Shown: positions 1 to 11,479 of the stretch, piece after piece
How positions within the stretch are numbered: position 1 is the first letter of the stretch
Layout: each line of letters starts with the position of its first letter
NCBI RefSeq assembly: GCF_007827695.1
Contig: NZ_VITA01000001.1
Span: 558,001 to 622,000, forward strand
Direction of reading: 5' to 3'
DNA from: Sinorhizobium medicae
GTDB taxonomy: Bacteria > Pseudomonadota > Alphaproteobacteria > Rhizobiales > Rhizobiaceae
DNA length: 64,000 nucleotides
Made by a program: the position numbers and the translations under genes
The notes under the pieces: generated by a model
What the model saw: the letters and a program-made list of their open reading frames with translations, nothing else
Told to the model about the DNA's origin: nothing
Databases searched by the model: none

Positions 1-134
1 CTCTCGTGACAACACGCCAGTCTTTCGGAAGTTCCGTTGGGGCAGAACGGGCGGCACGCCCTTCAACAACGCGGAATCACTCCTGCAAAATCCGCCGATC
101 ATTCTGCGGCAATGCGCCCAGGTGCGAACGTGAT

Positions 135-160
135 GGAACCGCCGGCGCGGTCGTGGCGTT
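135..160 (+). promoter_or_regulatory. RpoE2/EcfG-type stress promoter
   Basis: GGAAC (135-139) is followed after 19 bases by TT (159-160), with the -10 reading cgTT. This fits the rhizobial general-stress consensus GGAAC-N18/19-TT. It lies about 118 bases upstream of the small gene at 278. Bases 1-134 show no convincing gene. Confidence 0.55.
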
Positions 161-277
161 TGTCTGGCAGCTATCGCATGAGTGCCCCGAGCCGAAGCGA
201 AGGGCAAAACCAATAAGTAAATCAAATCGCTACAGCGACCGAGCGCGTCTGTCGATGCGCCGTTGTGGGAGGAGCAT

Positions 278-517
278 ATGCCTGTGATCAGCCCCACCGT
301 TCATAGCCAGCAGATCAGCCGCGAGCTTGAATGTCAGCGTGCATTAGAGGATGAGTTCCTCGTCCTGACCGCCCTGGCCGAAGAGGCGGGCTGGTCATGG
401 CAGGAAATCGCGCTCGCGATGATGGAGCTGACCGAGCAATATGTGGCGGCCATGCGCCCCGGTTCGGCGATGGAAGCTCGCTCGCTCCTGCGCATGCACT
501 CCAAGAGCTTGCACTGA
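278..517 (+). CDS. Conserved small hypothetical protein (79 aa)
   Basis: This 79-residue soluble protein has no transmembrane segment. It is rich in Glu, Leu and Ala, with a likely helical centre (residues about 20-60) containing two closely spaced Trp-rich turns. The ATG at 278 is preferred over an in-frame TTG at 263 because GGGAGGAG sits just in front of it. A stress-type promoter (135-160) lies upstream and a strong hairpin (608-627) follows, so it looks like a monocistronic stress gene. I do not recognise a domain and assign no function. Confidence 0.7.
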   Translation: MPVISPTVHSQQISRELECQRALEDEFLVLTALAEEAGWSWQEIALAMMELTEQYVAAMRPGSAMEARSLLRMHSKSLH

Positions 518-607
518 CCGAGCCGGGTGGCGAGTGACCGGGGCTGGGTGCCCGTCACCGCCAAAACAGCGCGGAACTGCTCCAAAGTTTTGATTGCCTG
601 CAATTCC

Positions 608-630
608 GGGCGGCCCGCGGGCCGCCCTTT
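608..630. terminator. Perfect GC-rich palindrome, likely terminator
   Basis: A 20-base perfect palindrome (608-627) with 9-base arms is followed by TTT. It lies between the end of the 278-517 gene and the 3' end of the convergent autotransporter remnant, which suits a terminator for the former and possibly for both. Confidence 0.6.
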
Positions 631-656
631 CACTTGTCCCCTCGTTCTGAATGCCG

Positions 657-1262
657 TCAGAACCTGACCCGCAGTCCGACGGTGCCCAGGGCATGGCTGT
701 CGCCGAAGTCGGTAAGGCCGGTGGTGGCGCGTAGCTTGCCATAGCGTGCGTATTTGTCGTCGCCCCAATTATAGCTGCCGCCAAGGCCGATCTCGCCGGT
801 CCTCGGGTTGGCTGTCGAGCGTCACCTCCGACATCCGGGCCCGCATACGGCCCGACATGTCGTGAATGACGTTGGCAATGCCATAGACCCCCATACGGCG
901 TGTGTCGCCTTGCTGCCCCTGCCAGACATTCTCATAATCGATGCTCATGCCGATCCAGGCACGCAGGCTGTCGCCGTCATCGAGCGAGACACGGGCGGCA
1001 AACGGATCGGTGAAGTCGTCGAAATCGACCGAGGCGCAGCTCAACTGCGCCTGGGGCGTGAGCGCCCAGTTGTCGCCAATGGCGAAGCGCTGGCGGCTTC
1101 GAGAATCAAGCCATAGCCGAAGCCGTCATTGCCGCTGGCGAGATTGCCGAGAATGGCAGAAGGGAGATCGCTGGAGAACCAGCTCAGCCGGCCTGGACAT
1201 CGGCATAGAAGCCGCTCTGGCCATACCAGGTCAGCGCGCCCGTTGACCACCTTGGCCGGCCG
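657..1262 (-). pseudogene. Autotransporter beta-barrel domain remnant
   Basis: Reading the minus strand and changing frame about three times (near 1205, near 1085-1045 and near 805-830) gives the C-terminal half of an outer-membrane autotransporter barrel. Recognisable stretches are WYGQSGFYADVQA, then SWFSSDLPSAILGN, then NWALTPQAQLSCASVDFDDF, IDYENVWQG and finally EIGLGGSYNWGDDKYARYG, ending in a terminal Phe before the stop at 657. No single frame is intact and the passenger domain is missing. Similarity to the barrel family is by eye; the frame breaks are read directly. Confidence 0.8.
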
Positions 1263-1332
1263 CTGCCTACTCTGTAAAGCAAGCCTTGGATGAGGCACGC
1301 GGCGACTGGATTCTGCATTCAATGGGTCTGCT

Positions 1333-1506
1333 CTAAGTTACGGCGCCTCCAACCGCCAGGGCCAGCACGAGGAAGACGAGAAAAATGATGACTGCAATGT
1401 AGAACAATATCTTTGCGATCCCCGCCGTCGCGGCCGATATGCCGGAGAAGCCGAGAAACCCGGCGATCAACGAGATTACGAAAAAAATCAGAGCCCATTT
1501 CAGCAT
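1333..1506 (-). CDS. DUF1328 (UPF0391) small membrane protein, 57 aa
   Basis: This 57-residue protein begins [20 protein letters not shown] and is almost wholly hydrophobic, with two predicted transmembrane helices (about 4-22 and 31-52) joined by a small Gly/Ala-rich turn. Sequence and length match the DUF1328/YtjA family, whose function is unknown but which is often linked to stress regulons. It lies 46 bases downstream of the small gene at 1699-1553 on the same strand, so it is probably co-transcribed from the stress promoter at 1768-1744. The gene is shorter than usual annotation cut-offs. Confidence 0.85.
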
Positions 1507-1552
1507 GATTGTTCCTTTCGTTCAGCCCGGGCGGATTGTGGCCAATGGCGCC

Positions 1553-1699
1553 TTATCGGCTGCCCCTCTGCGGATCCTTCCCGGCCGACTGGCTGCTTTT
1601 CTTGACATCGTCCTTCTTCGCCTGGTCTCCTGCCCGATTTCCACCATGTGTCCCTTTCGAGCTCTTGGCGGCCTTGCCGTCCTTTGCATTCGTAGCCAT
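1553..1699 (-). CDS. Small Lys-rich hydrophilic protein, 48 aa
   Basis: A 48-residue, highly charged and low-complexity protein starting MATNAKDGKAAKSSKG, rich in Lys, Gly, Ser and Asp with no hydrophobic core, so probably disordered. The ATG is preceded by GGAGGAA at good spacing, and a GGAAC-N18-TT stress promoter sits about 45 bases upstream. Coding evidence is the ribosome site, the promoter and the operon with the DUF1328 gene. I recognise no domain; disordered stress-protective proteins are one possibility, but that is speculative. Confidence 0.65.
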   Translation of the reverse strand: MATNAKDGKAAKSSKGTHGGNRAGDQAKKDDVKKSSQSAGKDPQRGSR

Positions 1700-1743
1700 T
1701 GCGCTTCCTCCAAACTGAAACCCAAACCTGCGGTCGCAGGTGC

Positions 1744-1768
1744 AACCGAGAAGGGGCGCGAATGTTCC
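1744..1768 (-). promoter_or_regulatory. RpoE2/EcfG-type stress promoter (minus)
   Basis: On the minus strand GGAAC (1768-1764) is followed after 18 bases by TT (1745-1744), with context ggTT. The inferred start of transcription near 1738 lies about 40 bases before the 1699-1553 gene. Confidence 0.6.
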
Positions 1769-1831
1769 GACCGCATCTTCAATGCCGAGTCCAGTGCAGG
1801 TTTCCCATTGATCTCGGCCACGGCCGTCGGC

Positions 1832-1856
1832 GGAACCAATTCCGGCCTGGAAGGTT
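1832..1856 (+). promoter_or_regulatory. RpoE2/EcfG-type stress promoter (plus)
   Basis: GGAAC (1832-1836), 18 bases, then TT (1855-1856), context ggTT. It points at the general stress protein gene at 2092 across a leader of about 230 bases. The bases after the -35 (GGAACCAATTCC) resemble those at 5462 and 9494. Confidence 0.5.
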
Positions 1857-2091
1857 TGGGGGCCGGATCAGGCGCCCGAGAACGAGGGCCTGAAGTATAA
1901 CGTCTTAGGCCTTGCAGTGCTGATGAGTGTCCCGGAAGCCGCCGCTGACTGCGCCTGGAAGCGGTATGAGGAAGCCTGGGCCCTGCCCGCATCCCACGTC
2001 TCAACTCTTTGGAAGAGATCGGCGCTGATACGGGCGACACCGCGCACGCTCCTCAGCCGTCTATGCGCTGCAGAAGGAAAAGGAAGAAGAC

Positions 2092-2643
2092 ATGAGGGTC
2101 GTGGCAGGGCTGTTTGATGATTACGACGAAGCGCGAGGGGCGGTTAGCGATCTCGAAGCGGCGGGGTTTCCCTCGGAAGATATGAGCATCGTCGCCAACA
2201 ATGCGGGCGAGCGCTATACGAGCGGCGGCGCCGTGCCCGGCGCGACGGGGCTTTTGATGGGCCTGGACCTGATGGTGACACCAGGGATCGGACCTGTCGT
2301 CGGGGCCGGCTGGCTTGCGTCGGCCGCCGCCGGGGCTCTCACCGGAGAGTGTGCCGGCGGCATCATCGAAACGCTCACCCACTCCGGTCTCGAGGAGGAG
2401 GATGCGCATCTTTACGCAGAGGGCGTGCGCCGAGGCAGCGCGCTAGTGGTGGTCAGGGCCGATGAGAAGCTGGTCGCCCAAGCGGATGGTATTCTGAGAA
2501 ACCGCAATGCGGTCGATATATCGTTCCGGCGACGCGCTTTTACGGAAGACGGCTGGACCCGGTTCGACGCCGCTTCGAACCCGTACAGCCTCGATGAGGT
2601 GACACGCGAACGGGAACGCCTCAGCCCCCCGGCGCTGTTGTAG
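2092..2643 (+). CDS. YflT-like general stress protein with Gly-zipper core
   Basis: The 183-residue protein begins MRVVAGLFDDYDEARGAVSD, a ferredoxin-like half typical of the YflT/general-stress-17M domain (residues about 1-55). A Gly/Ala-rich hydrophobic segment follows (about 50-110), then a second alpha/beta half with EEDAHLYAEGVRRG (about 100-140). The C-terminus has an aromatic-acidic tail with a Tyr-Ser motif. Family members are induced by stress; the molecular role is unknown. AAGGAAAAGGAAG precedes the ATG. The fused methyltransferase gene follows on the same strand 152 bases later. Confidence 0.75.
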   Translation: MRVVAGLFDDYDEARGAVSDLEAAGFPSEDMSIVANNAGERYTSGGAVPGATGLLMGLDLMVTPGIGPVVGAGWLASAAAGALTGECAGGIIETLTHSGLEEEDAHLYAEGVRRGSALVVVRADEKLVAQADGILRNRNAVDISFRRRAFTEDGWTRFDAASNPYSLDEVTRERERLSPPALL

Positions 2644-2700
2644 CAGCAGGCGGCAGTCCGAAGTTTCCCGCGCGGCTGCACACCCCCGTTTCGGTTCGAT

Positions 2701-2739
2701 ACAGGCGACCCGGCCGAGGCCGCATGCCAGGTCGCCTGT
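2701..2739. other. Hairpin between stress protein and methyltransferase genes
   Basis: Two perfect 10-base inverted arms, ACAGGCGACC (2701-2710) and GGTCGCCTGT (2730-2739), flank a 19-base GC-rich loop. There is no T run, so it may be a weak terminator, an RNA-processing site or a leader structure for the 2796 gene. Confidence 0.4.
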
Positions 2740-2795
2740 TCGAATAAGGAGATGATCGAGTACCGGGCTGCGAGGAGACGCAAGGAGGCACCGCC

Positions 2796-4778
2796 ATGAT
2801 TGATTTTTCCAGAGCCCGCGAACGCATGATCGCGTCGCACCTCTCGCGGAGGGGAATTAGGAACGACCATGTGGTGAAAGCGATGCGCGTCGTTCCGCGG
2901 GAGGCCTTTGTGGACCCGGGCTTCGAAGAGTTCGCCTACGAGGATTCGGCGTTGTCGATCGGCCACGGCCAGACGATTTCGCAGCCCTATATCGTGGCGC
3001 TGATGATAGAGCGAGCCGAGGTTCAGCCCGGCGACACGGTGCTCGAAATCGGAACCGGATCCGGTTATGCAGCCGCAGTGCTCAGCCGGATCGCGGCACA
3101 TGTCTATACGATGGAGCGCCATGCAGGGCTCGCCAGGATCGCCGGGCAGCGCTTTGCCGACCTCCGCTACAAGAATATCGATGTCCGCGTCGGCGACGGT
3201 ACCACCGGTTGGCCGGAAGCAGGCCCCTTCGACGCCATACTGGTTGCGGCTGGAAGTCCCGAGATACCGTATGCGCTGAAGCAGCAACTCGATCTTGGCG
3301 GCCACCTCGTCATCCCCGTCGGGCCGCCGGACGAACAGCGCCTGCTGAAGGTCACGCGCGTGAGTGCCACGACGTTTAAGGAGCAGGACCTCGGTGGTGT
3401 AAGGTTTGTGCCGCTAATCGGCGAATATGGCTGGCACGACGAGCGGGCGGAGCCCCGGGCAAGGCAGAGCCTCAGGCCGGCCCCCACTCTGTCGCAGATG
3501 GTGGCGTCGGCGGCCGAACCGCTGCCCGCCTTCGACGATCCGGCCTTCGGGCGGCTTTTCGATAGATTCGCCGGGCGGCGGGTCGTGCTGCTCGGAGAAG
3601 CAAGCCACGGCACGTCGGAATTTTATCGTGCCCGCGCGGCCATCACGCGCCGTCTGATCGAGGAACATGGATTTACGATCGTGGCGGTCGAGGCGGATTG
3701 GCCGGATGCCGCAGCGATCGACCGCTATGTTCGCCACCGAGCGCCGGGCATGCTACAGGACGCGCCCTTCCAGCGGTTCCCGGTTTGGATGTGGCGCAAC
3801 CGCGAAGTGATGGAGTTCGTGGAATGGATGCGCGAGCTCAACGGCAGCAGGGAGGCCTCCGATCGGGCCGGCTTCCATGGGCTCGACATTTATAACATCC
3901 GCGGCTCCATTGCCGCCGTCCTGCGATATCTTGACCAGACCGATCCACAAGCGGCTGCAGTTGCCCGCGCGCGCTACGGGTGTCTCACGCCCTGGCAGAA
4001 CGAACCATCGACGTATGGCCGTGCTGCGATGACGGCAGGCTTCCGCAAATGCGAGGAAGCCGTCGTCGAGCAATGCCGGGAACTTCTGGAGAAGCAGCTC
4101 GAAGCCGGCCGCGGTAGCGGCGACGAGCTTCTCGACGCGGTACAGAATGCGCGGCTGGTGGCCTCGGCCGAGCGCTATTACAGGATCATGTATTATGCCG
4201 GGCCTGACTCCTGGAACATGCGTGACAGCCATATGTTCGAGACGCTCGAGCACCTGTTGAACGCGCGCGGCGATCAATCGAAGGCGGTCGTGTGGGCGCA
4301 CAACTCTCATATCGGCGACGCCCGCCACACCGACATGGGTACTGCCCGCGAGGAGTTGAACATCGGCCAGCTCTGCCGTGAGCGCTACGGCGATCAGGCT
4401 GTGCTGATCGGCTTCGGCACGCATAGCGGCCGTGTGGCTGCCGCAAGCGATTGGGATGGCGACATGGAAGTGAAGACTATCCGGGCCTCGCTCGAAGGGA
4501 GCTACGAGCGTGTGCTTCACGACTCAGGCGTAGCGCGCTTCCTCATCGATTTTGCCCGCCACGCGCCCCTGAGCGAATGCCTTCTCAAGCCGATGCTCGA
4601 GCGCTTCATCGGAGTCATCTACCGACCGGAAACGGAACGGTTGAGCCATTATTCCCACGCCTCGCTGCCGCGGCAGTTCGATGCATTCGTCTGGTTCGAT
4701 GAAACGAACCCGGTCGAGCCGCTCGGACCTGAACACACAAGGGCCGGCGTGCCCGATACATTTCCGTTCGGTTTGTGA
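2796..4778 (+). CDS. Protein-L-isoaspartate methyltransferase fused to erythromycin-esterase-like domain
   Basis: This 660-residue two-domain protein has an N-terminal PCMT domain (about 1-215) with the family motif GHGQTISQP at 57-65 and SAM-binding loop VLEIGTGSGY at 82-91. PCMT repairs isoaspartyl damage by methylation. The C-terminal domain (about 250-655) is erythromycin-esterase-like, with LLGEASHGTSEFY near 265 and WAHNSHIGD near 498 supplying the family His and Glu residues. The ATG follows AAGGAGG. No stress promoter sits immediately upstream, but transcription could read through from the 2092 gene. The esterase domain need not act on erythromycin; many family members have unknown substrates. 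Confidence 0.9.
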   Translation: MIDFSRARERMIASHLSRRGIRNDHVVKAMRVVPREAFVDPGFEEFAYEDSALSIGHGQTISQPYIVALMIERAEVQPGDTVLEIGTGSGYAAAVLSRIAAHVYTMERHAGLARIAGQRFADLRYKNIDVRVGDGTTGWPEAGPFDAILVAAGSPEIPYALKQQLDLGGHLVIPVGPPDEQRLLKVTRVSATTFKEQDLGGVRFVPLIGEYGWHDERAEPRARQSLRPAPTLSQMVASAAEPLPAFDDPAFGRLFDRFAGRRVVLLGEASHGTSEFYRARAAITRRLIEEHGFTIVAVEADWPDAAAIDRYVRHRAPGMLQDAPFQRFPVWMWRNREVMEFVEWMRELNGSREASDRAGFHGLDIYNIRGSIAAVLRYLDQTDPQAAAVARARYGCLTPWQNEPSTYGRAAMTAGFRKCEEAVVEQCRELLEKQLEAGRGSGDELLDAVQNARLVASAERYYRIMYYAGPDSWNMRDSHMFETLEHLLNARGDQSKAVVWAHNSHIGDARHTDMGTAREELNIGQLCRERYGDQAVLIGFGTHSGRVAAASDWDGDMEVKTIRASLEGSYERVLHDSGVARFLIDFARHAPLSECLLKPMLERFIGVIYRPETERLSHYSHASLPRQFDAFVWFDETNPVEPLGPEHTRAGVPDTFPFGL

Positions 4779-4852
4779 GACTGGTAACTCTTGGCGGCCC
4801 TAGAATGCTGCCGGTGAAGGGGACTTGCTTGATCTTTTTGGGCGGGATCGGC

Positions 4853-5188
4853 CTAAAGCTGCGTCGAAACGATGTTGTCGACACCGACCACGCCATCGAG
4901 CACGCCGCGTTCTGTGCCTTCCGGAGCCGGCCCTTCCTCAACGACTGTATAGAGCTTTTCGCTGCGAAAGGCGCTGGCCATGTCGGTTGTAACGCCTTCG
5001 GCCGGCTTGGCGTCGATCTCCAGAAAGTCGAGTTCCGCCTCCGAGGCGACGATCCGGGCGTCGCCGCTTGATCTCGCGGCAACGACGACTTCGCCCTGGT
5101 AACTGGCGTTCTGCCAGTTCGGATCGTCGGGCTCGGCCAGGGGCGACAGCCGGTAGATCTTGAGTTTTTCCTGGATTTCTCGCGTCAT
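4853..5188 (-). CDS. Conserved hypothetical protein, 111 aa
   Basis: This acidic, soluble protein of 111 residues begins MTREIQEKLKIYRLSPLAEP. It has no membrane segment or signal peptide and no domain I can name. A TTG two codons upstream (5194) is an alternative start; I prefer the ATG at 5188. It is the second gene of a minus-strand pair with the small membrane protein at 5341-5210 (21 bases apart). Transcription is likely from the stress promoter at 5425-5401. The C-terminus overlaps nothing. Confidence 0.7.
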   Translation of the reverse strand: MTREIQEKLKIYRLSPLAEPDDPNWQNASYQGEVVVAARSSGDARIVASEAELDFLEIDAKPAEGVTTDMASAFRSEKLYTVVEEGPAPEGTERGVLDGVVGVDNIVSTQL

Positions 5189-5209
5189 TTTCAAACGTCC
5201 GTTCCGGAT

Positions 5210-5341
5210 TCATTCCGATTGGTCGATAGCATGCGGAGGAGGCTGCCCCGGTTCGGCCGGTTGGTCGAGGGGAAACATCATCCAAAGCCCCGCGATTAGT
5301 ACCAGGCCTACGATCACTGCTGCAGCCACGATTTTCGACAT
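5210..5341 (-). CDS. Small single-pass membrane protein, 43 aa
   Basis: A 43-residue peptide beginning MSKIVAAAVIVGLVLIAGLW: one N-terminal transmembrane helix (about 4-22) and a short Pro-rich, acidic tail. GGAAGGG precedes the ATG. The stress promoter at 5425-5401 lies about 60 bases upstream and the 4853-5188 gene follows closely. It resembles the many small inner-membrane stress peptides of proteobacteria; no specific function can be assigned. Confidence 0.65.
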   Translation of the reverse strand: MSKIVAAAVIVGLVLIAGLWMMFPLDQPAEPGQPPPHAIDQSE

Positions 5342-5400
5342 GTGCACCCTTCCGACCCATTGCCGAGACCGAACCAGAGAACCTGCGGTTTCCGGTCTCA

Positions 5401-5425
5401 AATCATCAAGCCCTGGAATTGTTCC
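5401..5425 (-). promoter_or_regulatory. RpoE2/EcfG-type stress promoter (minus)
   Basis: On the minus strand GGAAC (5425-5421), 18 bases, TT (5402-5401). It faces the two minus genes starting at 5341. The -35 lies inside GGAATTGTTCC (5415-5425), an exact inverted copy of the sequence around the divergent plus promoter. Confidence 0.6.
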
Positions 5426-5461
5426 GCAGCCGTCGACTGGCCGCGGCGGGGCGGTCCCGCA

Positions 5462-5486
5462 GGAACAATTCCGCAAACTGCCGGTT
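5462..5486 (+). promoter_or_regulatory. RpoE2/EcfG-type stress promoter (plus)
   Basis: GGAAC (5462-5466), 18 bases, TT (5485-5486), context ggTT. It lies about 32 bases before the DUF892 gene. GGAACAATTCC (5462-5472) is the reverse complement of 5415-5425, so the two divergent promoters form a symmetric pair. Confidence 0.65.
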
Positions 5487-5517
5487 GGAGCACGCGCGAA
5501 AAAGAAAGGAACATCAG

Positions 5518-6024
5518 ATGGCTACTGCGAACGAACACCTTGTGGCTTGGCTCAGGGATGCGCACGCGATGGAAGAGCAGGCGATCACGATGCTGACCAG
5601 CCAATCCGGCCGGCTGGAAAACTATCCCGAACTGAAATCCAGGATCGACCGTCACCTGCAGGAGACGCGGGACCAGGCGGCGATGCTCGAACGCTGCCTC
5701 GAGCGCCTGGACGGCGGAACCTCGAGCATCAAGGATATCAGCGGCAAGATCATGGCTTTCGGACAAGGCCTGAGCGGTCTGTTTGTCAGTGACGAAGTGG
5801 TCAAGGGCTCGCTGGCCAGTTACACATTCGAGCACATGGAAATCGCGAGTTATAAAATTCTCATTGCCGCGGCCGAACAGGCGGGTGATCAGGAGACGAA
5901 GCGGGTCTGCGAGAGCATCTTGCAGCAGGAAATCGCGATGGCGGACTGGCTGGGCGAGCACGCCGGCGAGATCACCCGCAGGTTCCTGGAGCGGGATCAG
6001 CGAGACGTGACGGCCAAGCATTGA
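5518..6024 (+). CDS. YciF-like DUF892 ferritin-like protein
   Basis: This 168-residue all-helical protein, starting MATANEHLVAWLRDAHAMEE, matches the DUF892/YciE-YciF family of ferritin-like four-helix bundles. Conserved Glu/His positions for a di-metal site are visible in the first helix (DAHAMEEQ), the third (YTFEHMEIASY, about 101-111) and the last (QQEIAMADWL). Family members are stress-induced; a ferroxidase or metal-sequestering role is suggested for some but not proved. The start is set by AAAGGA and by the stress promoter 32 bases upstream. A terminator-like hairpin follows. Confidence 0.85.
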   Translation: MATANEHLVAWLRDAHAMEEQAITMLTSQSGRLENYPELKSRIDRHLQETRDQAAMLERCLERLDGGTSSIKDISGKIMAFGQGLSGLFVSDEVVKGSLASYTFEHMEIASYKILIAAAEQAGDQETKRVCESILQQEIAMADWLGEHAGEITRRFLERDQRDVTAKH

Positions 6025-6061
6025 ACAGCCTTTGCCGCGAACGCTTCGGCGGAAGTGCCGG

Positions 6062-6092
6062 CGCCGCGCACCCGGAAGGTCCGCGGCGTTTT
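6062..6092. terminator. Hairpin plus T run after DUF892 gene
   Basis: CGCCGCG (6062-6068) pairs with CGCGGCG (6082-6088) across a 13-base loop and is followed by TTTT. It lies between the convergent 5518-6024 and 6876-6148 genes. Confidence 0.6.
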
Positions 6093-6147
6093 CGTGCGGC
6101 ATGCGGCCCGCCATCACCAACAGCTCAGGCGGATAGGCCGATCTCGC

Positions 6148-6876
6148 CTACGCGAGGACGTCTAGTTCGGTCAGGAGCGGAAGATGGTCCGAGGCGCTTC
6201 GCGCCAGGGCGCTGCTGTGTACCTGGCAGGAAACCACTTCAATGCAGTCGCCTATCAGCACGTGGTCGATACGCAGCAGCGGCAACCGGGAAGGAAAAGT
6301 GGGCCGGGGCTTATTGCCAGTGAGGAGCTGTACGTCCTTGAGCTGCCGGGCGAGGAGCCTGTAGGAGGCGGAACGCCCGGTTGCATTGAGATCTCCTGCC
6401 AGAATCAAGCGGGTTTTTCCCTGCTCCATTGCCCCGAGCCATCCCGGGCCCAGCAGGGCCGTTGCCTGGCGCAAGCGCTCGGCACCGCGCAGTCCGAGAT
6501 GCGTCACGATCACCTGCAGTTTGACGCCGGCCGCGTCAATTTCCACCCATAGCGCGCCTCGCGGTTCGCCGGACGAGGGCAGTGGAGCAGCCCTGATCAA
6601 CCGCATGGGCAAAGCCGTCAGCACGGCATCGCCATATTTCTCATCCTCGAGGTGGAGTGCCGGATGGAACTGAGCGTCCATGCTGAGATGCGTGGCGATC
6701 ATGTGTGCCTGGTCTATTCCACCGGTGCGGGCGCGGCCGACGTCGACTTCCTGCAAGGCAATCACGTCGGGCCGGCATTCCGCGATCACGGCGGCGATGC
6801 GCGCGGGATCGAGCTTGCGGTCGGTGCCGAAGCAGCTGTGGACGTTATAGGTGAGGAAACGTATCCGCTGTCGCAT
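6148..6876 (-). CDS. ybhP: YbhP-like endonuclease/exonuclease/phosphatase family protein
   Basis: This 242-residue protein belongs to the EEP superfamily of metal-dependent phosphodiesterases. Near the N-terminus it has TYNVHSCFG, then ALQEVD (catalytic Glu), mid-protein HLGLRG and LAGDLNATG, and a C-terminal SDHLPLL with the catalytic His. No signal peptide is clear. Neighbouring genes resemble ybhN and ybhO/clsB, so this mirrors the ybhPON cluster of E. coli, linked to membrane phospholipids. I start at the ATG 6876 because the overlapping stress promoter would begin transcription near 6880; a GTG at 6891 is the longer alternative. Confidence 0.8.
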   Translation of the reverse strand: MRQRIRFLTYNVHSCFGTDRKLDPARIAAVIAECRPDVIALQEVDVGRARTGGIDQAHMIATHLSMDAQFHPALHLEDEKYGDAVLTALPMRLIRAAPLPSSGEPRGALWVEIDAAGVKLQVIVTHLGLRGAERLRQATALLGPGWLGAMEQGKTRLILAGDLNATGRSASYRLLARQLKDVQLLTGNKPRPTFPSRLPLLRIDHVLIGDCIEVVSCQVHSSALARSASDHLPLLTELDVLA

Positions 6877-6884
6877 CGCTTTCG

Positions 6885-6912
6885 GGAACACGCAGCGCCT
6901 GCATTTCGTTCC
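6885..6912. promoter_or_regulatory. Symmetric bidirectional stress promoter
   Basis: GGAAC (6885-6889) and GTTCC (6908-6912) are inverted copies 18 bases apart. On the plus strand this gives GGAAC-N19-TT (context cgTT) toward the ybhN-like gene at 6936; on the minus strand it gives GGAAC-N19-TT toward the ybhP-like gene. Each -35 overlaps the other strand's -10. Confidence 0.55.
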
Positions 6913-6935
6913 GGTGAGTGCGCAAGGGAGTGCCG

Positions 6936-7877
6936 ATGTCCAGGAAAATACTAGCGAGGCTGTTCATAGCGGCGGGTATCGCGGTGGCGGGCTGGCTGAT
7001 CTATCGAACGCTTAGCCAGCATAGTTTCAATGAGATCGTCGGTTCGATCATGCGGATTCCTGGCCGGCATCTCTTTGCAGGCATCGGTTTCGTCTTTCTT
7101 TCCTATTTCTGCCTGACGCTGTTCGACACTCTCGCCATTCGCTATGTCGGGCGAAAGCTCCCCTATCCGCAAATCGCCATCGCTTCGTTCACCAGCCTTT
7201 CGATCGGCCATAATGTCGGCGGCGCGGCCCTGAGCAGCGGTGCCATCCGGTATCGTTTCTATTCGCGCTGGGGCTTGAGCGCCGAAGAGATTGCGAAAGT
7301 CATTCTCTTTTGTGGGGTCACAGTGGGCCTCGGGCTTATCGCATTGGCCGGGCTTTGCTTTGTGGCGGTGCCGGCGGACGCCGCGCGGCTTACCGGGTTG
7401 TCCACGAGCGGCGCATTTCTGCTCGGCGCTGCCTGCATCGCAACAGCGGCCAGCTATGTACTGCTTGCGTGTTTGTTGCGCGGTTCGGTCCGCATCTTCC
7501 GCTGGAGCTTCGAAATGCCCTCGGTGAAGATCGCCACCTTGCAGGTGATCGTCGGTGTGGCCAACTTCCTCTGCGTCAGCGCATCCCTGCATCAGCTGCT
7601 CAGCGCTTTTGAAGAGGTGAGTTTCATCGACACGGCAATGGCCTATGTCGGTGCCGGGGTGACTGCGATCGTCAGTCACGTTCCCGGTGGAATCGGCGTC
7701 CTGGAAGCGACGATTGCATTTCTGCTCGGCAGTTCGGCGAGTCTGGGCGCTCTCATCGCCTTTCGGGCGATCTATTTCTTCCTGCCGCTGCCGCTGGGCT
7801 TGATATCGCTGTCCGTTGCGGAGCTCGCTGCCCGTCGCGACGACGATAAGAGCCTCGCGAGCAAGGCGAAAAGCTGA
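6936..7877 (+). CDS. ybhN: YbhN-like lysylphosphatidylglycerol synthase TM-region protein
   Basis: A 313-residue integral membrane protein with about eight transmembrane helices and the family signature SHVPGGIGVLEA (about residues 246-257). It belongs to the UPF0104/LPG-synthase transmembrane family, whose members act on or flip membrane lipids. The first helix starts at about residue 7. The ATG at 6936 is preferred over the GTG at 6918 because GGGAG sits just upstream. Its promoter is the shared site at 6885-6912. The last 106 bases overlap the 3' end of the convergent phospholipase D gene. Confidence 0.85.
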   Translation: MSRKILARLFIAAGIAVAGWLIYRTLSQHSFNEIVGSIMRIPGRHLFAGIGFVFLSYFCLTLFDTLAIRYVGRKLPYPQIAIASFTSLSIGHNVGGAALSSGAIRYRFYSRWGLSAEEIAKVILFCGVTVGLGLIALAGLCFVAVPADAARLTGLSTSGAFLLGAACIATAASYVLLACLLRGSVRIFRWSFEMPSVKIATLQVIVGVANFLCVSASLHQLLSAFEEVSFIDTAMAYVGAGVTAIVSHVPGGIGVLEATIAFLLGSSASLGALIAFRAIYFFLPLPLGLISLSVAELAARRDDDKSLASKAKS

Positions 7878-9391
7878 CCGACCCAGCGCCTGAGCAGCTT
7901 GTGCGTGCGATAAAAGGGCCGGATCGGCCGCTGCGGATCGATGATCTCCGTTCCCCAGACCAGATCGGTCGCGCCGCCATTGTCGATTCCGTCAAAGCTG
8001 CGTATGCCGCGCGGGCGCGTGTTCAACCTGTCTATGGCGGCTATGAGGGAGCTCGTTTCCCTCAGGGCCTCTGCGAAGGCGTCCGCATGGACGTCGAGAT
8101 GTTCTGCGATCAGGCCATTGCGTATTTTGGCAATTGCCGCGCGGTGTCCTTCATTGGCGGCTTCCACGGCAACATCGCATTCGGTGTCGAGGCTTTCCGA
8201 GCGGTGGTTGAAGTTCGACGAACCGACCCGGAAAAAGCGGTCGTCGATCGCGACCACCTTGGAATGGATCATCACCTCCTGCTCGGATCCGTCGGGGGCG
8301 GGAACGGCCGGATAGGCAACCCTGAGCCTGCCGTAACGGTCAGCCTGTGTGAGCCGTCGAATGAGACGGTCGCGGTTGCCGCCCATGACGATGCGTTCCA
8401 GCAGCCCATGCGAGCTTCGGGTCGTGATGATCACCACTTCCGGGCCGTCCGGCTCCTGCAGCCGGTCGCAGAGCAGCTGCCCTATCCTTCCGGACGCGAA
8501 ATACTGGTTTTCGATATAGATGTGGCGACGCGCGCTGCGCAAGGCGTCAAGCGTCAGCCGCAATGCTTCCCGGCGGGCGCGCTTTTTGCCGGAGCCGGGC
8601 TCGGTCCGGGCGATTGCGACCGGGCAATTTTCGAGGATCGGCACGGTGCCGTTGGGCCATGGCCATGTGCGCGCGCCTTTTGATGCCTTCGCACGCGGAG
8701 CTTCGACTTCTTCGCCGGTGGAGGCTGTCCAGCGGGCGCGGCAGAGATCACCGATCGCGCGGCTCGCCTCGCCTTCGACAATCGCCTGGATGTCATGCAC
8801 CGGGTCATAAGGCTTGCCGTCCGGATCTCGACGCAACTCGTTCTCTGCCGCGTGTTCCGGCGTGTCCCAGCGGCGCGCCGTCAGGTCGATGCCCCCCGCG
8901 AAGGCGATCCTGTCATCGATGCAGACGAGCTTCTGATGATGCGACCCTCGCAGCGCGCGATGGCTCGCGAAGCGGAGCTCGATCTGCGGATGCGCTGCCC
9001 ATTGCTGCTTGCGGAAAAGCCTGAGCGACTTTCCCGAATAAATGGGGCCCATCGCCCAAATGAGAATGCGGATTTTCAGGTCGGGCTTCTGCGCAGCCAG
9101 CCGCTCAAGCGTGCTTCCAAGGGATTCCGCATGCGGGTCTTCCGGCCTGAGCTTGATGCGCGGATCGAAGTCCCAGCCGGTGATCCACAGCTGCTCTTCC
9201 GCTTCCTCGAACATGGTGTCGAGACAGGCATAATAGGCTGCTGCATCCACGAGGAACGAGAGATGTCGTGCGGGCGCGCTGCGCCAGACATTTTCGGCCT
9301 CCTTGATAATCGGCCGGCTTGCCCGTCGCAATCGGCCGGCCGTATTTCCGGTGAGCGCGTTTTTCCAGTCCAAGCTTCCTATCCCGTGCAT
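7772..9391 (-). CDS. Phospholipase D / cardiolipin-synthase-like protein (YbhO-like)
   Basis: This 539-residue protein carries two HKD motifs: HHQKLVCIDDRIAFAGG in the first half and IHSKVVAIDDRFFRVGSSN in the second, each followed by the expected Gly/Ser/Asn residues. Paired HKD motifs form one catalytic site using a covalent phosphohistidine, as in phospholipase D and cardiolipin synthases. There is no N-terminal membrane segment, so it may be cytosolic or peripheral; the C-terminus ends in a basic Ser/Arg-rich tail. The start at 9391 fits the upstream stress promoter (9431-9406). Clustering with ybhN- and ybhP-like genes supports a membrane-lipid role. Confidence 0.85.
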   Translation of the reverse strand: MHGIGSLDWKNALTGNTAGRLRRASRPIIKEAENVWRSAPARHLSFLVDAAAYYACLDTMFEEAEEQLWITGWDFDPRIKLRPEDPHAESLGSTLERLAAQKPDLKIRILIWAMGPIYSGKSLRLFRKQQWAAHPQIELRFASHRALRGSHHQKLVCIDDRIAFAGGIDLTARRWDTPEHAAENELRRDPDGKPYDPVHDIQAIVEGEASRAIGDLCRARWTASTGEEVEAPRAKASKGARTWPWPNGTVPILENCPVAIARTEPGSGKKRARREALRLTLDALRSARRHIYIENQYFASGRIGQLLCDRLQEPDGPEVVIITTRSSHGLLERIVMGGNRDRLIRRLTQADRYGRLRVAYPAVPAPDGSEQEVMIHSKVVAIDDRFFRVGSSNFNHRSESLDTECDVAVEAANEGHRAAIAKIRNGLIAEHLDVHADAFAEALRETSSLIAAIDRLNTRPRGIRSFDGIDNGGATDLVWGTEIIDPQRPIRPFYRTHKLLRRWVGQLFALLARLLSSSRRAASSATDSDIKPSGSGRKK

Positions 9392-9405
9392 TCCGATTGG
9401 AAATG

Positions 9406-9431
9406 AATCCCTTTCAACCGTGATTTGTTCC
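9406..9431 (-). promoter_or_regulatory. RpoE2/EcfG-type stress promoter (minus)
   Basis: Minus-strand GGAAC (9431-9427), 19 bases, TT (9407-9406). The inferred transcript would start about 8 bases before the phospholipase D ATG at 9391. Confidence 0.5.
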
Positions 9432-9493
9432 AGCAACAGCATAGCTGCCGAATAAAGCTTCCCAGGGCTCTCGCGGTGCAGCACCGCCATGGC

Positions 9494-9519
9494 GGAACAA
9501 TTCCCCGGCGGAGGGGATT
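9494..9519 (+). promoter_or_regulatory. RpoE2/EcfG-type stress promoter (plus)
   Basis: GGAAC (9494-9498), 19 bases, TT (9518-9519). It lies about 68 bases before the ThDP enzyme gene. GGAACAATTCC is identical to the sequence at 5462-5472. Confidence 0.55.
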
Positions 9520-9587
9520 AGAAGGCCCCGAGCCTTCAACCCATCACCCGCAAAATCGCGCTCTCGCTGGCCGGAGGAGGAATAGAC

Positions 9588-11405
9588 ATGCCGAATGCTT
9601 CCGACATTCTCATAGAGACGCTTATCGAATGGAAGGTCGAAGTGGTCTTCGGCCTGCCGGGAGACGGCATCAACGGTATCATGGAGGCGCTGAGGCGGCG
9701 GCAGGACCGCATCCGCTTCGTCTCCGTGCGCCACGAGCAGTCCGCTGCCTTCATGGCGTGCGCCTATGCCAAGTTCACGGGCAGGCTCGGCGTTTGTCTT
9801 GCCACTTCGGGTCCGGGCGGAACGAACCTCCTGACCGGCCTCTACGATGCGAAGCTCGATCAGATGCCGGTGCTGGCGATCACCGGCATGCAGTATCATG
9901 ACCTGATAGAGACTTTTTCGCAGCAGGACGTCGATCTCACCCGCGTCTTCGAAAACGTCGCCGTCTACAATGCTCAGGTGAACGATGCCGCCCACATGGA
10001 AAATCTCGCAAACCTCGCCTGCCGGTCGGCCCTCTCGAAGCGCGGGGTCGCGCATCTTTCGATCGCCAACGACGTGCAAGAGCGTATGGCCGGCGGTGGG
10101 CGGTCCCGCCGCAACCGCGAAGGGCACATGCCGAGCCGCTTTTTCGAAGGCAGGCTGGTGCCGCGCGAAGACGATATTCTGCGCGCGGCGGACCTTCTGA
10201 ATGCGGGCAGGAAGGTTGCGATTCTTGCCGGTCGCGGCGCGCTCGAGGCAAAGGGGCTTTTGCGCGAGACGGCGGACCTGTTGGGCGCGCCGGTGGCAAA
10301 AGCCCTGCTCGGAAAGGCCGTGCTGCCCGACGACGACCCGTTCACCACCGGAGGCATCGGAATTCTGGGAACGGTACCGTCGCAGGAGATCATGCAGCAA
10401 TGCGACACGCTGCTGATCGTCGGTTCGACCTTCCCCTATATCGAATACTATCCGAAGCCCCACGCAGCCACCGGAATCCAGATCGATCATGACCCGCAGC
10501 GCATCGGGCTTCGCTATCCGGTCGAAGTCGGGCTTGTCGGCGCGGCGGGAGAGACCCTTCGCATGCTCAATGAACGGCTTCAGCGCAAAGCAGACCGGAC
10601 GTTTCTCGAACAGGCGCAAGAGAAAACGCGAAACTGGCGGCGTGAATTGCGTGCCATGGAGGGCGACAGGAGTTCTCCCCTGAAGCCGCAGGCCGCGGTC
10701 GGCGCGTTTGGCAGGCGCATCGCGGCAAACGGCATCGTCGTCACAGATTCCGGACAAAACACCGAACTTGCGGCCCGCCATGTGGATCTCGGTGCCGACC
10801 ATATGTTTGCGGTATCGGGCGCACTCGCATCCATGGCCTCGGGTCTCCCTTACGCGATCGCGGCTGGCATCGCCATGCCCGCCCGTCCCATCTACGCGGT
10901 GGTGGGCGATGGCGGCTTCGCCATGCAGCTCGGAGAATTCGCCACGGCCGTCCGCTATGAGATTCCTTTGAAGCTCCTGGTGATCCGTAACGACATGCTG
11001 AACCAGATCGCCTGGGAACAGATGATGTTCCTGGGCAATCCGCAATTCGCCTGCGAGCTGCCGCCGATCGACTTCGCCGCTGCGGCAGAAGCCATGGGCG
11101 GCCGAGGCTTCACGATCCGGTCCTTCGACGAAATAGACGGGGTTCTGGATCAGGCATTCGCAGCCGAAGGACCGGTCGTCATTCAGGCGCTGGTCGATCG
11201 CTACGAGCCGCTGATGCCGCCCAAAATGCCCGAGGACTACGCCCGCAATTTCCGTGCCGCGCTTCCGCAAACGCCGGGACATGAGAAAATCGAAGAAAAC
11301 CTCAGGCATTCCTCCGCAGGCAGGAAAGTCACCGAGGAGGAGCCGCAGGCACCACATGAAGCGGCGCCGGACGCCAATACCGGTGACCTGCCAGGGATAC
11401 CGTAG
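9588..11405 (+). CDS. ThDP-dependent enzyme, pyruvate oxidase / acetolactate synthase family
   Basis: The 605-residue protein shows the three-domain plan of ThDP enzymes. The N-terminal pyrimidine-binding domain has VRHEQSAA with the catalytic Glu at residue 50. A central Rossmann-like domain spans about 190-335. The C-terminal pyrophosphate domain has GDGGFAMQLGE near 440 and NDMLNQ as the metal-binding end of the motif. It is closer to pyruvate-oxidase-like (PoxB-type) proteins than to biosynthetic IlvB; no regulatory subunit is adjacent. GGAGGAGG precedes the ATG. The stress promoter suggests a role in stress metabolism; the substrate is not determined. Confidence 0.85.
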   Translation: MPNASDILIETLIEWKVEVVFGLPGDGINGIMEALRRRQDRIRFVSVRHEQSAAFMACAYAKFTGRLGVCLATSGPGGTNLLTGLYDAKLDQMPVLAITGMQYHDLIETFSQQDVDLTRVFENVAVYNAQVNDAAHMENLANLACRSALSKRGVAHLSIANDVQERMAGGGRSRRNREGHMPSRFFEGRLVPREDDILRAADLLNAGRKVAILAGRGALEAKGLLRETADLLGAPVAKALLGKAVLPDDDPFTTGGIGILGTVPSQEIMQQCDTLLIVGSTFPYIEYYPKPHAATGIQIDHDPQRIGLRYPVEVGLVGAAGETLRMLNERLQRKADRTFLEQAQEKTRNWRRELRAMEGDRSSPLKPQAAVGAFGRRIAANGIVVTDSGQNTELAARHVDLGADHMFAVSGALASMASGLPYAIAAGIAMPARPIYAVVGDGGFAMQLGEFATAVRYEIPLKLLVIRNDMLNQIAWEQMMFLGNPQFACELPPIDFAAAAEAMGGRGFTIRSFDEIDGVLDQAFAAEGPVVIQALVDRYEPLMPPKMPEDYARNFRAALPQTPGHEKIEENLRHSSAGRKVTEEEPQAPHEAAPDANTGDLPGIP

Positions 11406-11453
11406 GCGCATACCGTAGGCGCTTGTGGCGACGCGCCTCGGTGGCCCGCCGAT

Positions 11454-11479
11454 GGAACAAAGCTCGCCTTCTTAGGTTC
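11454..11479 (+). promoter_or_regulatory. RpoE2/EcfG-type stress promoter (plus)
   Basis: GGAAC (11454-11458), 19 bases, TT (11478-11479), context ggTT. It lies about 33 bases before the ASRT-like gene and probably drives the five-gene operon 11512-16128. Confidence 0.6.

Follow-up and report, generated by a model that had tools for sequence, protein, structure and literature searches.

A 28-bp element at positions 6885-6912 of the DNA studied here appears to fold two promoters of the general-stress sigma factor EcfG (RpoE2) into one mirror-symmetric site. The whole stretch analyzed, which we call the window, covers 64,000 bp of Sinorhizobium medicae (C1:558001-622000 within a 6.53-Mb genome), and the element lies between two divergent genes for a YbhP-like protein of the endonuclease/exonuclease/phosphatase family (EEP) and a YbhN-like membrane protein, names that we take over from the presumed E. 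coli counterparts. It belongs to a cluster of eleven intergenic EcfG-like sites in the first 11.6 kb of the window (Table 1). Our reading, to which we assign a probability of roughly 0.8, is that the eleven sites are EcfG (RpoE2) promoters and that 6885-6912 is a single symmetric element acting as a two-way EcfG promoter.

The sequence of the element is GGAACACGCAGCGCCTGCATTTCGTTCC. The first-pass annotation had listed 6885(+) and 6912(-) as two separate promoters; in fact they overlap almost completely and form one symmetric site, in which the -35 box of each orientation contains the -10 of the other. GGAAC would act as the -35 on one strand, and its complement GTTCC would supply the GTT of the -10 in the opposite orientation. 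Applying a 5-12 nt rule taken from passages of a published study (PMC3616915), we predict RNA starts at about 6915-6922 towards the YbhN-like gene and at about 6882-6875 towards the YbhP-like gene. The two starts should thus point outwards from positions about 37 bp apart. The YbhP start codon in S. medicae (6876) coincides with the predicted start or lies only a few bases from it, and this mRNA may therefore be nearly leaderless.

Sequence comparison indicates that this element is the part of the cluster with wide conservation, a feature that the first-pass annotation missed. The EEP gene is present at an identity of at least 73% in 31 of 33 Sinorhizobium genomes, and the GGAAC-GTTCC palindrome stands between the YbhP-like and YbhN-like genes in all 30 Sinorhizobium loci fetched. 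Across these loci both arms are invariant, as are the AC after the first arm and the TTTC before GTTCC. Agreement in the left flank is mostly 27-60%; in the right flank it starts at 97% and declines over about 10 bases. Other genera of the same family carry the palindrome in 18 of 27 loci. Two side observations concern the genes themselves. In S. fredii NGR234 the YbhN-like gene is interrupted (L129:5269-7065, on pNGR234b) while the two-way site is intact, and the 858-bp insert is identical to an IS5-like (ISNGR9) segment annotated as transposase on another NGR234 plasmid. The S. medicae genome also holds an EEP paralogue at C9:118190-118879 (40% identity), and 32 of 33 Sinorhizobium genomes have listed matches of this paralogue type (37-40%).

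Presence of the palindrome follows the orientation of the two genes. We sorted 82 loci, a set that includes an order-wide search of 397 genomes, by gene layout and counted palindromes within 250 bp of the EEP gene (L095, L096, L098 and L099 were left out as repeats of L038, L070, L072 and L080). The palindrome occurs in 48 of 49 head-to-head loci, in 1 of 16 co-oriented loci and in none of 17 without an adjacent YbhN gene, meaning none in the 1.5 kb fetched on each side of the locus. In the head-to-head exception, L081, the YbhP-directed site is intact and TC replaces the GG required by the other direction. Nine order-wide loci outside the family have just one site, lying 56-86 bp before the EEP gene, and none of these sites has GTTCC. 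A further set, the best 80 of 242 loci from ten genera, overlaps the genomes of the first and was counted separately: 78 loci are head to head, and every one of them carries the palindrome, which is missing from L241. The genera with the palindrome are Sinorhizobium/Ensifer, Shinella, Agrobacterium, Rhizobium, Neorhizobium, Pseudorhizobium, Xaviernesmea, Phyllobacterium, Paramesorhizobium and a Mesorhizobium; they belong to Rhizobiaceae and, according to NCBI (where three genera were looked up), Phyllobacteriaceae.

A perfect inverted repeat with 5-bp arms between two divergent genes could also be the operator of a dimeric transcription factor, with no promoter pair at all. The details of the 79 palindromes in the best-80 set make this very unlikely. 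Their spacer is 17 bp long in 39 cases and 18 bp in 40, a near-equal split that would rotate the half-sites relative to each other, and most spacer bases vary. Nor does any symmetry continue into the spacer (its self-complementarity is 0.18 for 64 distinct palindromes), and both the fixed spacing and the symmetry beyond the arms that mark a dimeric operator are absent. The two sides also differ: on the YbhN side GTT is always preceded by C (78 of 78 scored cases), matching the published EcfG -10, while on the YbhP side the preceding base is free (T in 56, G in 16, C in 3 and A in 3). Finally, the arms are identical to the EcfG boxes at nine other places in the cluster.

Could only one direction be a real EcfG promoter, the CC at the opposite end being kept for some other reason, for example as initial transcribed sequence? 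A second palindrome in the same genome speaks for this: GGAAC-N17-GTTCC at C1:191679-191705, before a DUF3008 gene, persists in all 30 Sinorhizobium loci compared, where the annotation shows no divergent gene. We nevertheless regard the one-direction explanation as unlikely, given the split by layout (48/49 and 78/78 head-to-head loci against 1/16 co-oriented). In addition, the 59-bp YbhP-YbhN gap of the window contains no further EcfG-like site for the second gene. Head-to-head genes at C1:164724 provide a control: between glgX (-) and treZ (+) each gene has an EcfG site of its own, and at the treZ site the boxes are kept in 30 of 30 loci, whereas the CC follows in only 8 of 30 (6 of 28 recognized with a stricter pattern). 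A head-to-head pair with separate promoters thus does not keep the palindrome. Likewise, at the other GGAAC-N17/18-GTT sites of the best-80 loci CC comes next in only 8 of 111, and two of these 8 are halves of the L230 palindrome missed by the position filter. Another palindrome, at C12:45287, which our gene finder places in a divergent gap, survives in only 5 of 30 loci.

Several observations count against a two-way EcfG promoter and must be set beside this evidence. The -10 directed towards YbhP is mostly TGTT rather than CGTT. L244, the remaining locus of the best-80 set, carries the site with no YbhN hit, and the palindrome is also found at two co-oriented loci, L086 (near the gene) and L101 (344 bp away, beyond the 250-bp limit). 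On its other side the DUF3008 palindrome looks towards the 3' end of a gene for an MFS transporter, and the annotation agrees with our gene finder for both DUF3008 and MFS; conservation of GTTCC alone is therefore no proof of a two-way promoter. Either GTTCC is kept there for another reason, or the site possibly makes an antisense RNA; passages of PMC3616915 report sigma-E2 motifs before 40 antisense RNAs in S. meliloti. Near this palindrome lies a sigma-factor gene (L301) whose promoter is the one published for rpoE5. GGAAC-GTTCC palindromes in general show no enrichment in the S. medicae genome (13 against 16 for the control) or over 12 genomes (185 against 212, summed), which excludes the two-way site as a general habit of these genomes. 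Phylogeny sets a further limit: on an EEP tree, built by a quick method and with several long branches, the head-to-head layout needs a single change, and an independent-pairs test finds one pair only. The loci are thus not independent trials and are best described as one origin followed by long retention.

How far can the cluster as a whole be trusted? The first-pass annotation had described a set of GGAAC-N18/19-TT sites, counted as nine in its title; its list in fact holds ten, all present on the strands given, and an eleventh intergenic site at 35(-) was absent from it. The sites have the parts of an EcfG/RpoE2 promoter, namely a GGAAC -35, a GTT or TT -10 and 18 or 19 bases to the TT, with ATT in place of GTT at three of the eleven (5425-, 9431-, 9494+). 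The claim that their density is far from random is borne out: the 13 intergenic segments (2,177 bp, with gene limits that we set aided by annotated homologues) contain 11 sites, against a mean of 0.41 in 2,000 dinucleotide shuffles (standard deviation 0.65, maximum 4). For the strict pattern GGAAC-N17/18-GTT the corresponding values are 8 and 0.10 (maximum 3). The first 11.6 kb holds 9 strict sites, including 4213+ inside coding sequence, compared with a total of 20 over fifteen further 20-kb stretches of this genome, or about 0.8 per 11.6 kb. Genome-wide there are 390 strict matches against 307 for a reversed control pattern, so that most single matches elsewhere are due to chance; the cluster is not. 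A matrix built from seven published RpoE2 promoters, weak because of this small number, gives the eleven sites scores of 9.9-16.5, of which only 6885+ and 11454+ reach the training range (15.9-21.1). At a threshold of 11 the matrix returns 11 hits in the first 11.6 kb, some away from the listed sites, 9 in the remaining 52.4 kb of the window and 63 in the 300 kb of the fifteen other stretches. As an aside, GGAACAATTCC has 7 copies in the genome, three of them at cluster sites (5415-5425, 5462-5472, 9494-9504).

The same sites recur in S. meliloti. All eleven lie at equivalent places (ten compared with strain 1021, 11454(+) with strain 2011), and the core bases agree at 77 of 77 positions, against 160 of 198 in the spacers and 117 of 220 (53%) in the 20-base upstream flanks. 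The flank value is a lower bound because the comparison was ungapped, and the overlapping 6885/6912 share bases, which are counted twice. The boxes are thus conserved above spacer and flank, as is looked for in an EcfG/RpoE2 promoter. The matching regulators are encoded in the genome as well: a profile model finds two NepR genes, each adjoined by a PhyR gene (recognized by PF22029/PF22233/PF00072). Directly behind one nepR, and divergent from its phyR, is a sigma gene of the extracytoplasmic-function (ECF) type with sigma regions 2 and 4, which from its place appears to be EcfG. In the divergent gap between phyR and nepR-ecfG, GGAAC sites occur on both strands without forming a palindrome.

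RpoE2 control of the cluster genes is our inference. For S. meliloti, 346 sigma-E2 promoters have been predicted and 76 genes are likely direct targets (PMC3616915). RpoE2 dependence is reported for the cluster neighbours SMb20065 and SMb20074/75 and for SMb20091 (PMC6180224), and the SMb20065 and SMb20074 promoters printed there closely resemble, by eye, two sites that precede the window by about 21 and 11 kb. SMb20091 is said in PMC6180224 to have no RpoE2-like motif; counting from treS = SMb20099, we could only guess that it is the DUF892 gene, and in the window that gene is preceded by a site.

Because the motif is short, one may ask whether the matches arose by chance, or whether the sites serve a different sigma factor such as RpoE6 or RpoE5. 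In S. meliloti the RpoE6 regulon overlaps that of RpoE2 (27 of 40 RpoE6 genes), and the RpoE6 motif is somewhat like that of group ECF15 (both from passages of PMC6180224). The same source gives GGAATA as the -35 consensus of the RpoE6 group, however, and the excess over shuffled sequence together with the invariant core bases stands against chance. We consider this explanation highly improbable. Supported, on sequence evidence, is the view that these are RpoE2/EcfG-type promoters, beyond chance and conserved in S. meliloti.

Other parts of the first-pass annotation need adjustment. Most sites do stand before stress-type genes, as it had stated, while several of the targets are small hypothetical proteins. 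The compact stress island does not survive: loose-pattern sites are also dense directly upstream of the window (9 in 20 kb) and at C1:150-190 kb (17 and 11 in two 20-kb stretches), where other stretches have 1-8, and the gene run behind 11454(+) extends beyond the proposed island to the TreS-like gene and the LLM oxidoreductase (about 16.1 kb). This run is probably one transcript. The region at C1:150-190 kb is a larger cluster of EcfG-like sites on the same contig, and it includes glgX/treZ with two back-to-back sites. The accessory replicon is correct in the sense of a megaplasmid: the first 25 kb of the window is 99.9% identical to NC_009620 (the 1.57-Mb plasmid of S. medicae WSM419) and about 85.5% identical to S. 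meliloti pSymB-type plasmids, which identifies a pSMED01/pSymB-type replicon.

Table 1. Predicted promoter sites and genes in the first part of the window.
Feature	Position	Strand	Remarks
EcfG-like site	11..35	-	
EcfG-like site	135..160	+	before small hypothetical protein (278-514)
EcfG-like site	1744..1768	-	before small basic protein and DUF1328
EcfG-like site	1832..1856	+	before YflT-domain protein
EcfG-like site	5401..5425	-	ATT at -10; before small minus-strand genes
EcfG-like site	5462..5486	+	before DUF892 protein
Symmetric two-way EcfG promoter (predicted)	6885..6912	both	GGAAC-N18-GTTCC, 28 bp; between YbhP-like (-) and YbhN-like (+) genes
EcfG site towards YbhN-like gene (predicted)	6885..6910	+	-10 CGTT; matrix score 16.0
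EcfG site towards YbhP-like gene (predicted)	6887..6912	-	-10 TGTT; matrix score 12.0
EcfG-like site	9406..9431	-	ATT at -10; before PLD-like gene
EcfG-like site	9494..9519	+	ATT at -10; before pyruvate-oxidase-like gene
EcfG-like site	11454..11478	+	heads five-gene ASRT-to-LLM run
Small hypothetical protein	278-514	+	behind site 135..160
DUF1328 protein	1336-1506	-	behind site 1744..1768
Small basic protein	1557-1700	-	behind site 1744..1768
YflT-domain general stress protein	2092..2643	+	PF11181
Protein-L-isoaspartate methyltransferase fused to erythromycin-esterase-family domain	2796..4778	+	660 aa; PF01135 + PF05139
DUF892 ferritin-like protein	5518..6024	+	PF05974
YbhP-like EEP-family protein	6148..6876	-	PF03372, 4.6e-22
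YbhN-like membrane protein, UPF0104/MprF flippase-domain type	6936..7877	+	PF03706 below cut-off; MprF model 2.5e-54, below equivalog cut-off
Phospholipase D (PLD)/cardiolipin-synthase-like protein	7772..9391	-	
Thiamine-pyrophosphate enzyme, pyruvate-oxidase-like	9588..11405	+	
Tightly packed five-gene run: ASRT, FAD oxidoreductase, ASRT, TreS-like, LLM oxidoreductase	from behind 11454(+) to ~16,128	+	

Among the gene products, the YbhN-like protein matches the flippase part of MprF in the profile search. Fragments of an autotransporter-type gene at 660-1320 on the minus strand are probably a remnant (the homologue is annotated as autotransporter domain). In S. meliloti RCAM1750 a PepSY gene stands behind the equivalent of the 1832(+) site; a comparison with the window up to 16.5 kb gave no significant match to it, the region behind the site being 1857-2091 here.

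If 6885-6912 is a two-way EcfG promoter, the EcfG-RNA polymerase holoenzyme would sit on it in either orientation, and because the two promoters overlap, one binding event would exclude the other. Stress would then turn on the YbhP-like and YbhN-like genes together from 28 bp of DNA, with the YbhN direction predicted to be the stronger (perfect CGTT -10, matrix score 16.0 against 12.0). In E. coli, ybhP, ybhO (clsB) and ybhN form one operon. We take the same three kinds of protein to be neighbours here too, but with YbhP and YbhN head to head. The ancestral layout was probably one co-oriented operon of the YbhP and YbhN genes, and once YbhN had taken up a head-to-head position relative to YbhP, the addition of two bases on one side (GTT to GTTCC) would have sufficed to make the promoter two-way. 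Because the GTT of the -10 is part of the complement of the GGAAC -35, an EcfG promoter would be two bases away from such a site. We lean slightly towards the broader view that this holds for any EcfG promoter, that related genera fixed one such site for YbhP/YbhN, that others (as at the DUF3008 gene next to rpoE5) may couple a stress gene to an antisense RNA, and that these sites constitute a second, ECF-type kind of bidirectional promoter. If true, a two-fold symmetry is concealed in the recognition sequence of an ECF sigma factor, and selection can exploit it for the joint regulation of two divergent genes within 28 bp. The two-way site offers a conserved, testable case in model rhizobia: changes in a single arm are predicted to silence one gene and leave the other unchanged or raised.

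Among known systems, the sites resemble RpoE2/EcfG (ECF15) general-stress promoters in GGAAC, spacing, GTT -10, stress-type targets and the presence of EcfG, NepR and PhyR in the genome; 6885-6912 differs from them in combining two promoters within a single symmetric site. In the open-licence literature searched we found no case of EcfG or another ECF sigma factor with a bidirectional or palindromic promoter, which is no proof of novelty, and in the divergent hrpL/hrpJ region, as described in the published excerpt, the elements are adjacent and not shared. Another close comparison is with the bidirectional promoters of sigma-70 (Warman et al.; passages of PMC12825309 and PMC10268837), where pseudo-symmetric DNA likewise binds polymerase either way. 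Those promoters share one symmetric -10, with starts mostly 18 bp apart, and compete only at high activity (PMC12825309). The element at 6885-6912 lacks such a shared symmetric -10, next to or inside which both strands would have their starts: its -35 and -10 are exchanged between orientations, its predicted starts are about 37 bp apart, and its sigma factor would be of the ECF type. By analogy it may work like a bidirectional promoter, but one to be filed outside the sigma-70 class.

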